Position numbers and translations under genes: made by a program. From Thermodesulfobium sp. 4217-1 (GTDB taxonomy: Bacteria > Thermodesulfobiota > Thermodesulfobiia > Thermodesulfobiales > Thermodesulfobiaceae), in contig NZ_JBAGBW010000018.1 of assembly GCF_039822205.1 (NCBI RefSeq), forward strand, positions 1-40,807: a stretch of DNA of 40,807 bases, read 5' to 3'. Shown here piece after piece: positions 3,379-10,300 of this stretch; the stretch's first letter is position 1, and each line of letters starts with the position of its first letter. The notes under the pieces are model-generated. The model searched no databases. It was not told the origin of the DNA and saw only the letters and a list, made by a program, of their open reading frames with translations.

Positions 3379-4267
3379 TTATACAAAAGATATTCATATT
3401 CCGGTTCTTTTGGAAGAGGTTTTGGAGAGTTCTAATTTGAATCCGGGCAAGGTGGTAATTGATGGGACTATTGGCGGTGGGAGTCACAGCTTTCACTTCT
3501 TAGAAAGAATACTCCCAGGTGGATTTTTATTGGGACTAGACAAAGATACTCAAGCAGTAGAGTTAGCTGGTGAAAAGCTATCATCTGCTTTTGAAAAAAG
3601 TTCTTTTTCAGTTTTTAATGATAAATTTGAAAATTTTAATAAATATCTAAATTTTTTGCCCAATGGAAAATTTGATCTGTTTTTTTTGGATCTTGGACTA
3701 TCGACTATGCAGATTAAAGAATCAAATAGGGGATTTAGCTTTATGAAAGATGAAAAATTAGATATGCGTATGGATACAAGGGGAAAATTGACTGCTTCTG
3801 ATTGGCTAAACAATGCGAGTGAAGAAGAAATGGAAGAGGTATTTAGAAAGTACGCTGAGGAACCCAAATCAAGAAGATTGGCAAAAATGATATCTTCGAG
3901 AAGACGTGAAAGAGCCTTTGAAAGTACAGTTGACTTTGCTGATCTTGTTAAAAAAATTTATCCATATGGGAGGAGGCATCCAGCAACTAGGATTTTTCAG
4001 GCGATAAGGATAGTTGTAAATGAGGAAATTGAGAGTTTGGAGTTTACTCTGAGGCATGCTGCAGAGCATATTAATTCTCTTGGACGAATCATAGTTATCT
4101 CGTTTCATTCGGGTGAAGACAGAATTGTAAAGTGGACTTTTAGAAATTTGGAAAAAGAGGGAATGGGAAGAGTAATTTCGAAGAGGCCAATTATAGCTTT
4201 GGAAGATGAAGTTAAAAGAAATCCATCTGCAAGGAGTGCTAAGATGAGAATATGGGAGGCAAAGTGA
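3371..4267 (+). CDS. rsmH: 16S rRNA (cytosine-1402-N4)-methyltransferase RsmH
   Basis: RsmH (MraW) methylates N4 of C1402 in the decoding centre of 16S rRNA using SAM. The 298-residue product has the SAM-binding segment DGTIGGGSHS near the N-terminus, LFFLDLGLS in the middle, GRRHPATRIFQAIRI, and ISFHSGEDRIVK towards the C-terminus, all typical of the family. I chose ATG 3371, which overlaps the mraZ stop; TTG 3365 would add two residues. AAAGG (3356-3360) lies 10 bases upstream. It is the standard second gene of dcw clusters. Confidence 0.96.
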   Translation: MSNYTKDIHIPVLLEEVLESSNLNPGKVVIDGTIGGGSHSFHFLERILPGGFLLGLDKDTQAVELAGEKLSSAFEKSSFSVFNDKFENFNKYLNFLPNGKFDLFFLDLGLSTMQIKESNRGFSFMKDEKLDMRMDTRGKLTASDWLNNASEEEMEEVFRKYAEEPKSRRLAKMISSRRRERAFESTVDFADLVKKIYPYGRRHPATRIFQAIRIVVNEEIESLEFTLRHAAEHINSLGRIIVISFHSGEDRIVKWTFRNLEKEGMGRVISKRPIIALEDEVKRNPSARSAKMRIWEAK

Positions 4268-4614
4268 AAAGGGATTATGATCTGAGCTTTTCTGAAATAG
4301 AGAGTATAAAAAGAGCAAGGAATTTTGAGCTAAAAGATTTCCTTATAAATGTCAAAGGAAATGTTCTAATAGTTTTGTTTTCTTTTTTAGTTTTGCTAGC
4401 CTTAATTTATGGTCTTTATCTGAGATCGGACATAATATCAATATCAAATCAAGTGGACAGTATAAAATCATCAATACAAAGATTGGAAACCTTAAAAACA
4501 CAAAAAACTTTGGAAGAAGCAAGCATTTTTAACGCAAAGGTGATGCAGTCGGTTGCTCTAAAAAAGGGAATGAATCTGCCATCAGAGATAGAATACATTC
4601 AAATAAGCCGTTAG
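4264..4614 (+). CDS. ftsL: FtsL-like cell division protein
   Basis: This is a 116-residue single-pass membrane protein. A basic cytoplasmic N-terminus of about 35 residues is followed by one hydrophobic helix (VLIVLFSFLVLLALIYGLYL). The outer segment is predicted to be a coiled coil (SISNQVDSIKSSIQRLETLK). FtsL proteins share little sequence, so the name rests on size, topology and position between rsmH and ftsI. FtsL bridges the FtsQ/FtsB module to FtsW-FtsI at the septum. I start it at GTG 4264, which overlaps the rsmH stop and lies 4 bases after GGGAGG; ATG 4252 is an alternative. Codons 100-101 with the preceding base form A AAA AAG, a -1 slippery heptamer pointing into the ftsI frame. 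Confidence 0.75.
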   Translation: MKRDYDLSFSEIESIKRARNFELKDFLINVKGNVLIVLFSFLVLLALIYGLYLRSDIISISNQVDSIKSSIQRLETLKTQKTLEEASIFNAKVMQSVALKKGMNLPSEIEYIQISR

Positions 4615-4667
4615 ATCAATCCCATAATGACTTAATAAATAAAAGGATTGCCTATTTACAAAAATTA

Positions 4668-6281
4668 ATGATTTTTTTATTTTTTGTTGTAATGGCAAAG
4701 CAGCTTTATTTTGTGACAATTGATAGACAGAAGTTGATCTCATACGCGCAAGCACAAAGAAATGAAGTAGTTAAAGTATCTAATCCAAGAGGTGAAATTC
4801 TTGATAAAGACGGAGTTATATTAGCTTTTTCGATTCCTTCTTATTCTCTTTATATACAGCCAGCTCTTATCAAGAATAATGAAATTAGAAAAGAATTGTA
4901 TGAAGATCTTTCGAAGATTAAGGGGATGCCTATTGAGAATCTAAAAAAGATTTTTGATAAGAAGGCTCCTTTTACATGGGTATATAGAAAAATGCCAATT
5001 GACATGGAAAAGAGTGTTCGAGAGATTTTAACTAAGTTTCCAAATCAAGGGATAGGGCTAATAAAGGAAGAAAAAAGAGTTTATCCATACAAAGACTTAG
5101 CTGAGCCTCTTTTGGGTTTTGTGGGTATCGATAACCAGGGGTTGGAAGGCATAGAAAAGTTTTACAATTCTTACTTAGGAAGCATTTCAAAAAAAGAGAA
5201 CATAGAGTTTGATGCAAGTGGAAGAATAGTAAATATTGATAAGTTAGAAAGTCTTGTCCAGTCCTCGTCTATTAAATTAAAGCTTACTATAGATTCTAAG
5301 CTTCAAGGTCTTTCTGAGAGGCTTTTGGATGAATGTGTAAAAAAATATAATGCAACAAGGGGAACTGTAATCGTCGTTAACGTAAAAACTGGCGCTATCT
5401 TAACTCTTGCTCAAACCCCAAGAGTAGACCCTGATAAATTTTATGACTTTCCCGAGGAAGACTATAGGATATTTTCACGAGATTTTCTGTATGAGCCAGG
5501 TTCCATAATGAAGCCTATAGTTTTTAGTATACTATTGGATAACAAGATAATATCCAAAGACACAACGGTTGATATTGGCAAATATTTGCAGGTTGCAGAT
5601 GCAAGAATTCATGACGCCGAGGATGGAATGGGTCTATCTGGTCCATCTAGTATAAGGGATATTTTAAGGTATTCTAGCAATATTGGTGCAGGAACACTTG
5701 CTTTAAAGGCGCCAAGAAAAGAATATTTTGATTTGTTAAACAAATATCTTTGTGATGATGAAAAATATCTTTTTTCAGAAAATTTTCTAAAGGGTTATGT
5801 TCATCTGCCTGACTACAAAGGGCCAGTGGAACAGGCCACATCGGCATTTGGACAGGGCATATCGCTTTCTTTTTTAAACGTAATAGCTTATTATTCTGCT
5901 ATTGCTAATGGCGGAGAAATTGTACCTTTAAAGATTATTGATGATGATGTTGGCACTCCGGTAAGGTTATTTAGCAAAAGTAATGCTGACTTCATTAGAA
6001 GCTGCCTTGTAAGCGTTGTGGACAATGGAACTGGTGAAAATGCTAAGATAAATGGAGTAGAGGTAGCTGGAAAGACTGGAACTGCTCAGAAACCATCAAA
6101 ACTGGGTGGATATATACCAGGCGAATATGTTGCGTCCTTTGTGGGATTTTTCCCAGCTAATAACCCTGAGTATGTAATCGGTGTTTTAGTTGATAATCCC
6201 ATTGGTATTCACTGGGGAGGGTCAGTCGCAGCTCCATTATTTAAGGAAATTGCCATTGCTGTAATGTCAATGGGCAAATAA
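4668..6281 (+). CDS. ftsI: Peptidoglycan transpeptidase FtsI (PBP3-type, class B PBP)
   Basis: FtsI crosslinks septal peptidoglycan with FtsW. Numbered from ATG 4668 (537 residues), the catalytic motifs are SIMK (279-282), SSN (336-338) and KTG (469-471). The N-terminal class B domain carries NPRGEILDKDG. There is no C-terminal PASTA domain, so it is FtsI-like, not SpoVD-like. The start is uncertain. ATG 4668 has no Shine-Dalgarno and leaves only about ten hydrophobic residues, half a membrane anchor. The same frame stays open back to 4533, overlapping ftsL. In it, NKRIAYLQKL supplies the missing basic residues and anchor start, but no ATG, GTG or TTG occurs there. A rare start (ATT 4647) or a -1 frameshift in ftsL are possibilities. 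Confidence 0.9.
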   Translation: MIFLFFVVMAKQLYFVTIDRQKLISYAQAQRNEVVKVSNPRGEILDKDGVILAFSIPSYSLYIQPALIKNNEIRKELYEDLSKIKGMPIENLKKIFDKKAPFTWVYRKMPIDMEKSVREILTKFPNQGIGLIKEEKRVYPYKDLAEPLLGFVGIDNQGLEGIEKFYNSYLGSISKKENIEFDASGRIVNIDKLESLVQSSSIKLKLTIDSKLQGLSERLLDECVKKYNATRGTVIVVNVKTGAILTLAQTPRVDPDKFYDFPEEDYRIFSRDFLYEPGSIMKPIVFSILLDNKIISKDTTVDIGKYLQVADARIHDAEDGMGLSGPSSIRDILRYSSNIGAGTLALKAPRKEYFDLLNKYLCDDEKYLFSENFLKGYVHLPDYKGPVEQATSAFGQGISLSFLNVIAYYSAIANGGEIVPLKIIDDDVGTPVRLFSKSNADFIRSCLVSVVDNGTGENAKINGVEVAGKTGTAQKPSKLGGYIPGEYVASFVGFFPANNPEYVIGVLVDNPIGIHWGGSVAAPLFKEIAIAVMSMGK

Positions 6282-9358: not shown

Positions 9359-10300
9359 ATGATTGAGCTTTTTCTTAGCTTTTTTATAGGAATCTTTGCC
9401 TTTTCTATATGGGAGAGGCACTTTGGCAAGTTTTTCGGTCAAAAGATAAGAGAAGAGGGGCCTGAGGCGCACAAGATAAAAACTGGAACCCCTACTGCTG
9501 CGGGGATATTTTTTATTCTTATCTTAGCTTTGTTTTTGCCATTTTTAGATTCAAGGACTTTTATAATTTTTCTTATTTCGCTCCCATTTTTTATAATCGG
9601 CTTTGTGGACGATTTGCTTTCCATAAAAAAGGGGAAAAATGAAGGTCTTAAACCGCGCCAAAAGATGACTTTGATACTAATTTTTTCTCTTATTGCGGTA
9701 TTCTTTCTTGCATTCTTTCTTAATTCGCAAATTTTTACAAGATTTCAAGTGTCTCCGACGATCCAGTTTTATATTCCTGGCCTAATCTTGTGGCCATTTT
9801 TGATTTTTGTAATAAGTGGTTCTACCAATGCAGTAAATTTGACTGATGGACTTGATGGTCTTGCGACTTTGTGTGCCTTATCTACACTTTTTGGCTATCT
9901 ATTTTTTTCGTATGTTGATGGAGATGTGCCGCTAATGTTGATGCTTCTTACTTTCATCGGTATTTTGCTCTCTTTCTTGTGGTTTAATGCTAATCCAGCA
10001 AAGATATTTATGGGCGATGTTGGTTCGATTGGTATTGGCGCATTTTTGGCAATACTCGCAATTTTTACAAACAGAATTGTTTTTTTTATCATATCTGCTC
10101 TGCCCTTTATAGTTGAGACTCTCTCTGTGATAATTCAAGTTGCTTACTACAAAAAAACAAAACAAAGGATATTCAAAATGAGCCCGCTTCATCATCATTT
10201 TGAATTATCAAATGTAAAGGAGACGCATATTTCTATGAGATTTTTTATTTTTTCTTTACTCTTTACGCTTCTCGCAGTGAGTTTACAAATATGTTGTTAA
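9359..10300 (+). CDS. mraY: Phospho-MurNAc-pentapeptide transferase MraY
   Basis: MraY transfers phospho-MurNAc-pentapeptide to undecaprenyl phosphate in the inner membrane, making lipid I. The 313-residue protein has about ten membrane segments and the conserved cytoplasmic loops: FVDDLLSIKKGKNEGLKPRQK, NLTDGLDGL, FMGDVGSIGIG and the histidine motif SPLHHHFEL. The Asp residues of the first three and the His cluster are the known Mg2+ and substrate ligands. The ATG is 12 bases after GGAGG. It overlaps murD by 10 bases. Confidence 0.96.
   Translation: MIELFLSFFIGIFAFSIWERHFGKFFGQKIREEGPEAHKIKTGTPTAAGIFFILILALFLPFLDSRTFIIFLISLPFFIIGFVDDLLSIKKGKNEGLKPRQKMTLILIFSLIAVFFLAFFLNSQIFTRFQVSPTIQFYIPGLILWPFLIFVISGSTNAVNLTDGLDGLATLCALSTLFGYLFFSYVDGDVPLMLMLLTFIGILLSFLWFNANPAKIFMGDVGSIGIGAFLAILAIFTNRIVFFIISALPFIVETLSVIIQVAYYKKTKQRIFKMSPLHHHFELSNVKETHISMRFFIFSLLFTLLAVSLQICC

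Follow-up and report, generated by a model that had tools for sequence, protein, structure and literature searches.

Few bacterial genes are known to start at codons other than AUG, GUG and UUG, and such starts are missed by gene finders (PMC5472188). As described there, infC starts at ATT in E. coli and at ATC in Streptomyces and is repressed by IF3; Streptomyces sigR has a conserved GTC start, was misannotated to a canonical codon and is also repressed by IF3 (PMC5472188). These two genes are precedents for a rare start as a throttle. For PBP3 (FtsI) of E. coli, PMC4038516 describes a 23-residue cytoplasmic tail followed by one membrane helix; tail and single helix resemble the FtsI N-terminus proposed below, and the order of the domains is shared.

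The window, i.e. the whole stretch of DNA that was analysed (40,807 nucleotides from Thermodesulfobium sp. 4217-1, contig NZ_JBAGBW010000018.1), contains a division and cell-wall gene cluster, in which the names mraZ, mraW, murE etc. are from our own reading of the open reading frames. The four genomes available for the phylum were compared: the window's own (G000), G001, G002 and G003. Over ftsL-ftsI, G002 is 97% identical to the window at the DNA level, and G001 and G003, each a single contig, are 79-80% identical to it; the comparison covers only three independent lineages (G000, G001 and G003). No relatives were found among viral contigs or, in a near-mode search, among plasmids; genome contigs yielded a single locus, on a contig as long as that of G002. 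The features discussed are listed in Table 1.

Table 1. Features of the ftsL-ftsI junction, in window coordinates
Feature	Position	Strand	Remarks
ftsL	4264-4614	+	116 codons, GTG 4264 to TAG 4612-4614; NCBIfam ftsL_broad match, Shine-Dalgarno sequence, gene order
A AAA AAG heptamer	4560-4566	+	present in G000 and G002, not in G001 and G003; judged incidental
Shine-Dalgarno-like AAAGGGAA (AAAAGGGG in G001 and G003)	4563-4570	+	10-11 nt before AUC 4581; duplex energies
Proposed AUC start codon	4581-4583	+	AUH codon kept in all four genomes; best of the candidates in conserved Shine-Dalgarno match; putative
ftsI (proposed)	4581-6281	+	566 codons from AUC 4581, stop 6279-6281, 34-nt overlap with ftsL; Pfam, NCBIfam, coding constraint
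FtsI N-terminal tail and first half of the anchor (NKPLDQSHNDLINKRIAYLQKL)	4602-4667	+	coding constraint in the ftsI frame, ahead of any canonical start
ATG, first canonical in-frame codon	4668-4670	+	within the membrane anchor; kept in all four genomes; implausible as main start

The ftsL product matches NCBIfam ftsL_broad with E=6e-6 and 26 bits, under the cut-off of 42.45. GGAGG at 4255-4259 precedes GTG 4264, the codon being GTG in the window and ATG in G001 and G003. The mechanical list of open reading frames opens ftsL at ATG 4252; the position of GGAGG favours GTG 4264. In the ftsI product, Pfam PBP_dimer (PF03717, 64 bits) and Transpeptidase (PF00905, 184 bits) both score over their cut-offs. 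The NCBIfam FtsI/SpoVD models reach 216 bits (NF011685; cut-off 737) and 288 bits (TIGR02214; cut-off 688), and since these scores fall short of the curated cut-offs, the name ftsI rests on the domains and the gene order. Ahead of mraZ, positions 2900-2961 are near-invariant, 4 of 62 sites varying across the three lineages; this stretch ends with two copies of TGGGATAAA 10 bp apart, which resemble MraZ boxes.

The same genomes offer an infC for comparison. It reads GGAGGTGA followed by ATA AGY AAA GAR TAT in all four (contig C16, 35957-36460, in G000, and the equivalent loci in the other three), and its only nearby canonical codon, an in-frame GTG, falls inside the Shine-Dalgarno sequence; infC of the genus thus appears to start at AUA in each of the four genomes. 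Like infC genes with AUU, AUC or AUA starts, the ftsI described here has a conserved AUH codon that was detected because no canonical codon fits. The two genes differ in their products: infC is autoregulated and specifies IF3, by which starts of this kind are rejected, whereas ftsI specifies the septal transpeptidase. The ftsI start would also be nested in the gene before it, and its Shine-Dalgarno match is the weaker one. With sigR, ftsI would share the conserved rare start in a gene other than infC; sigR differs in its GUC codon, in being a regulatory gene and in that its start was shown experimentally, whereas that of ftsI is deduced from sequence. A literature search at title and abstract level found no report of an unusual ftsI start.

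The ftsI frame is -1 relative to ftsL and is open from 4533 to the stop at 6279-6281, spanning 582-584 codons in the four genomes. In none of them does an ATG, GTG or TTG occur after 4533 in this frame before ATG 4668. The resulting start-less lead of 45 codons is the longest among the 38 open reading frames of at least 150 amino acids in the window (median 4). The second longest (29 codons, 10204-10290) lies ahead of murD, before ATG 10291; it is interrupted by in-frame stops in both other lineages, G001 and G003, and its variable sites are distributed 14, 4 and 0 over the three codon positions, without a coding pattern. The opening upstream of murD is, on this comparison, due to chance and serves as a negative control for the lead of ftsI. 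An error of sequence or assembly had been considered for the missing start, and the window is indeed one of the 69 contigs of a draft assembly. However, all four genomes show the same open lead, and two of them consist of a single contig, so that no sequence error lies behind the missing start; an error in the window is vanishingly unlikely, that proposal can be dropped, and the comparison confirms the absent start as a genuine property of the group. The preliminary description was correct in all its statements on the sequence itself (frame open from 4533, no canonical codon before ATG 4668, ATT at 4647, heptamer at 4560-4566). It had named a normal start codon in the 4630-4660 region of relatives as an observation against it: none is present in any of the four genomes, and the frame is open in all of them.

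In favour of ATG 4668, no other canonical codon is on offer and it is kept in all four genomes. No Shine-Dalgarno match precedes it in any of the three lineages (duplex energy +0.6 to +1.4 kcal/mol), and a chain begun there would open inside the hydrophobic stretch of the anchor, with no basic residue ahead of it. In 26 of 26 homologues examined outside the genus, a canonical start codon lies 15-35 codons ahead of the column of Met 4668; these are the best 26 of 56 non-genus genomes with an ftsI-like match and perhaps include some class B PBPs other than FtsI. The alignment to NF011685 enters at profile position 14, corresponding to codon 4617, so members of the FtsI family align well upstream of Met 4668. 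ATG 4668 is thus unlikely to be an adequate start, as had been said of it on account of its missing ribosome binding site and its place within the anchor. The reading in which it is nevertheless the true start, and conservation upstream has some other cause, is very unlikely, and is opposed also by the distribution of variable sites over codon positions upstream of it.

Ten sites in 4602-4667 vary among G000, G001 and G003, and 8 of them fall on the third position of an ftsI codon (binomial P=0.003); for the portion past the ftsL stop alone the count is 6 of 8 (P=0.02). Four codons are changed in 4602-4667, compared with a mean of 7.4 when the changes are shuffled to random sites (P=0.008), a test that is weak for the portion past the ftsL stop alone (P=0.08). 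Two substitutions in the last codons of ftsL, at 4607 and 4610, are synonymous in FtsI but replace residues of FtsL (S to N and R to H). Further upstream, 10 of the 16 codons in 4533-4580 alter the ftsI-frame amino acid, as expected of a stretch read for ftsL alone. Three of the seven codons in 4581-4601 alter the FtsI residue; the border of the constraint is therefore placed in or near 4581-4601, and clear constraint is seen only from about 4602 onwards. In a likelihood scan, ftsI coding begins at or before about 4608 and beginnings at 4635, 4647 and 4668 are rejected; the values for 4581 (0.156) and 4563 (0.165) make these two beginnings indistinguishable. The scan takes non-coding sequence to change at a neutral rate, but the stretch ahead of mraZ varies far less than such a rate would give, so the very strong verdict of the scan against late starts goes too far; the third-position counts are independent of this rate. 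Together these comparative data point to translation of the ftsI frame beginning at about 4602 or further upstream, in agreement with the earlier proposal that translation of ftsI starts upstream, within the overlap with ftsL. Because 4602-4667 reads as ftsI coding sequence, a start in the ftsI frame is required at or before about 4605, and ATA 4635, ATT 4647 and ATG 4668 are unlikely starts because the constraint is already present from about 4602.

Within these limits ftsI probably begins at a non-canonical codon, for which AUC 4581, at the head of the 34-nt overlap with ftsL and in the -1 frame, is the leading candidate. It is the only AUH codon of the ftsI frame in 4533-4605 that is kept in all four genomes. 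The Shine-Dalgarno-like stretch before it gives duplex energies of -5.5 (G000), -8.2 (G001) and -8.0 kcal/mol (G003), calculated with the general bacterial anti-Shine-Dalgarno sequence, which may not be that of the genus; the 16S rRNA 3' end pattern used to search for the latter matched in none of the four genomes. At 10-11 nt the gap is a long one, and the pairing in G000 is just -5.5 kcal/mol; among the likely starts of the window, mraY likewise has a gap of 10 nt. Both the AUC and the AAGGG sit in codons that FtsL needs regardless. Among 15342 aligned triplets of the cluster in the three lineages, 708 are conserved ATH triplets, and 43 of these have an equally good match in all three. Per 24 codons of one frame, 1.1 bare conserved ATH triplets are thus expected by chance, and 0.07 with an equally good binding site. 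A bare conserved AUC codon means little, and the codon together with its binding site is suggestive.

A start at AUC 4581 would give a normal FtsI. The codon lies 29 codons upstream of Met 4668, within the range of 15-35 seen in the outside homologues, and hydropathy and alignment predict from it a single N-terminal anchor with a short cytoplasmic tail, an arrangement that is truncated when the chain is begun at 4668. The ftsI gene of E. coli starts at AUG, which differs from the AUC proposed here.

Other non-canonical starts in the ftsI frame (GTC/ATC 4548, ATA/GTA 4593, ATA 4635 or ATT 4647) are, taken together, an unlikely answer. In G000 a good Shine-Dalgarno match lies 7 nt before GTC 4548 (-6.9), and a GUC start is documented in sigR (PMC5472188). 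The match at this position is only -2.3 in G001 and G003, however, the codon is GTC in two genomes and ATC in the other two, and 4548-4580 is without ftsI-frame constraint. Codon 4593 is GTA in two of the four genomes and ATA in the others. Both ATA 4635 and ATT 4647 are kept in all four, but neither has a Shine-Dalgarno match at usable spacing (values near or above zero), and all variable sites between 4602 and these codons are third positions (5 of 5 up to ATA 4635, 6 of 6 up to ATT 4647). The suggestion of a rare start in the preliminary description is thus likely to be the right answer, and its example, ATT 4647, is conserved and yet an unlikely start; AUC 4581, which was absent from its proposals, is the better candidate. 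An ATG at 4627 in the ftsL frame (4627-4637, kept in all four genomes) was also considered; the peptide that it would open, directly past the ftsL stop, is no more than two or three codons long. No Shine-Dalgarno match was found before it (+0.4), and its conservation is explained by the ftsI codons at this place, which read CAT AAT GAM.

A -1 shift in the ftsL frame at 4560-4566 enters the ftsI frame, and a programmed frameshift at this place, yielding an FtsL-FtsI fusion, had been proposed. A second in-frame heptamer, A AAG GGA, starts at 4563. The A AAA AAG heptamer, which resembles that of dnaX-type frameshifting, is correctly phased in G000 and G002, and the likelihood scan permits a beginning at 4563. 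G001 and G003, despite having the same need, read G AAA AGG and contain no in-frame X_XXY_YYZ heptamer in 4533-4614. Such heptamers are common by chance, as had been cautioned: they occur in frame at 109 of 6485 codons in 18 genes of the window, or about two per gene of 120 codons. A stimulatory fold was not found, three stretches of G000 giving z-scores of -0.92, +0.29 and -0.10 against shuffled sequences in a pseudoknot-free model, and 4566-4601 is without ftsI-frame constraint. A fusion with two membrane helices would, in addition, be expected to leave the transpeptidase in the cytoplasm, so the objection already raised on grounds of topology holds. In its unconserved heptamer, the lack of a fold in these stretches and the mis-inserted product the junction differs from the dnaX type. 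Frameshifting at 4560 was rejected for want of conservation, fold and constraint and in view of the chance frequency, and is highly improbable. Alignment of the junction in the relatives, which had been advised as a check, thus found the open frame and ATT 4647 conserved in all four genomes, but not the heptamer. Transcriptional slippage at the A-run, which counts six A in G000 and four in the other two lineages, was considered as well.

With AUC 4581 as the start, the following course of events is proposed. Ribosomes would bind at the AAARGGG stretch (about 4563-4570) inside the ftsL message, and the initiator tRNA would be set on AUC 4581, if this is the exact codon used. Ribosomes already on ftsL probably assist initiation there through coupling. 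The predicted product is an FtsI of 566 residues with MRDRIHSNKPLDQSHNDLINK in its N-terminal part and with a cytoplasmic tail of about 20-28 residues, one anchor, and PBP_dimer and transpeptidase domains in the periplasm. An AUC start would be expected to keep the expression of ftsI low, and initiation at this codon may be controlled by IF3.

Non-canonical starts are already known from infC and sigR, and the AUC start of ftsI nested in ftsL would most likely be a further case. With such a start on this essential division gene, calling the first canonical codon would truncate FtsI within its anchor across the whole group. Other genes could be screened in the same way, for codon-position constraint ahead of their first canonical codon, to uncover similar cases. 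A start of this kind would also provide a testable link between initiation fidelity, through IF3, and cell division. We tentatively suggest that in this phylum, as sampled by four genomes, the septal transpeptidase is made from a conserved AUC nested in ftsL and infC is translated from AUA, and that the activity of IF3, and with it the state of the translation machinery, might thereby set the dose of the division enzyme and throttle septum synthesis.
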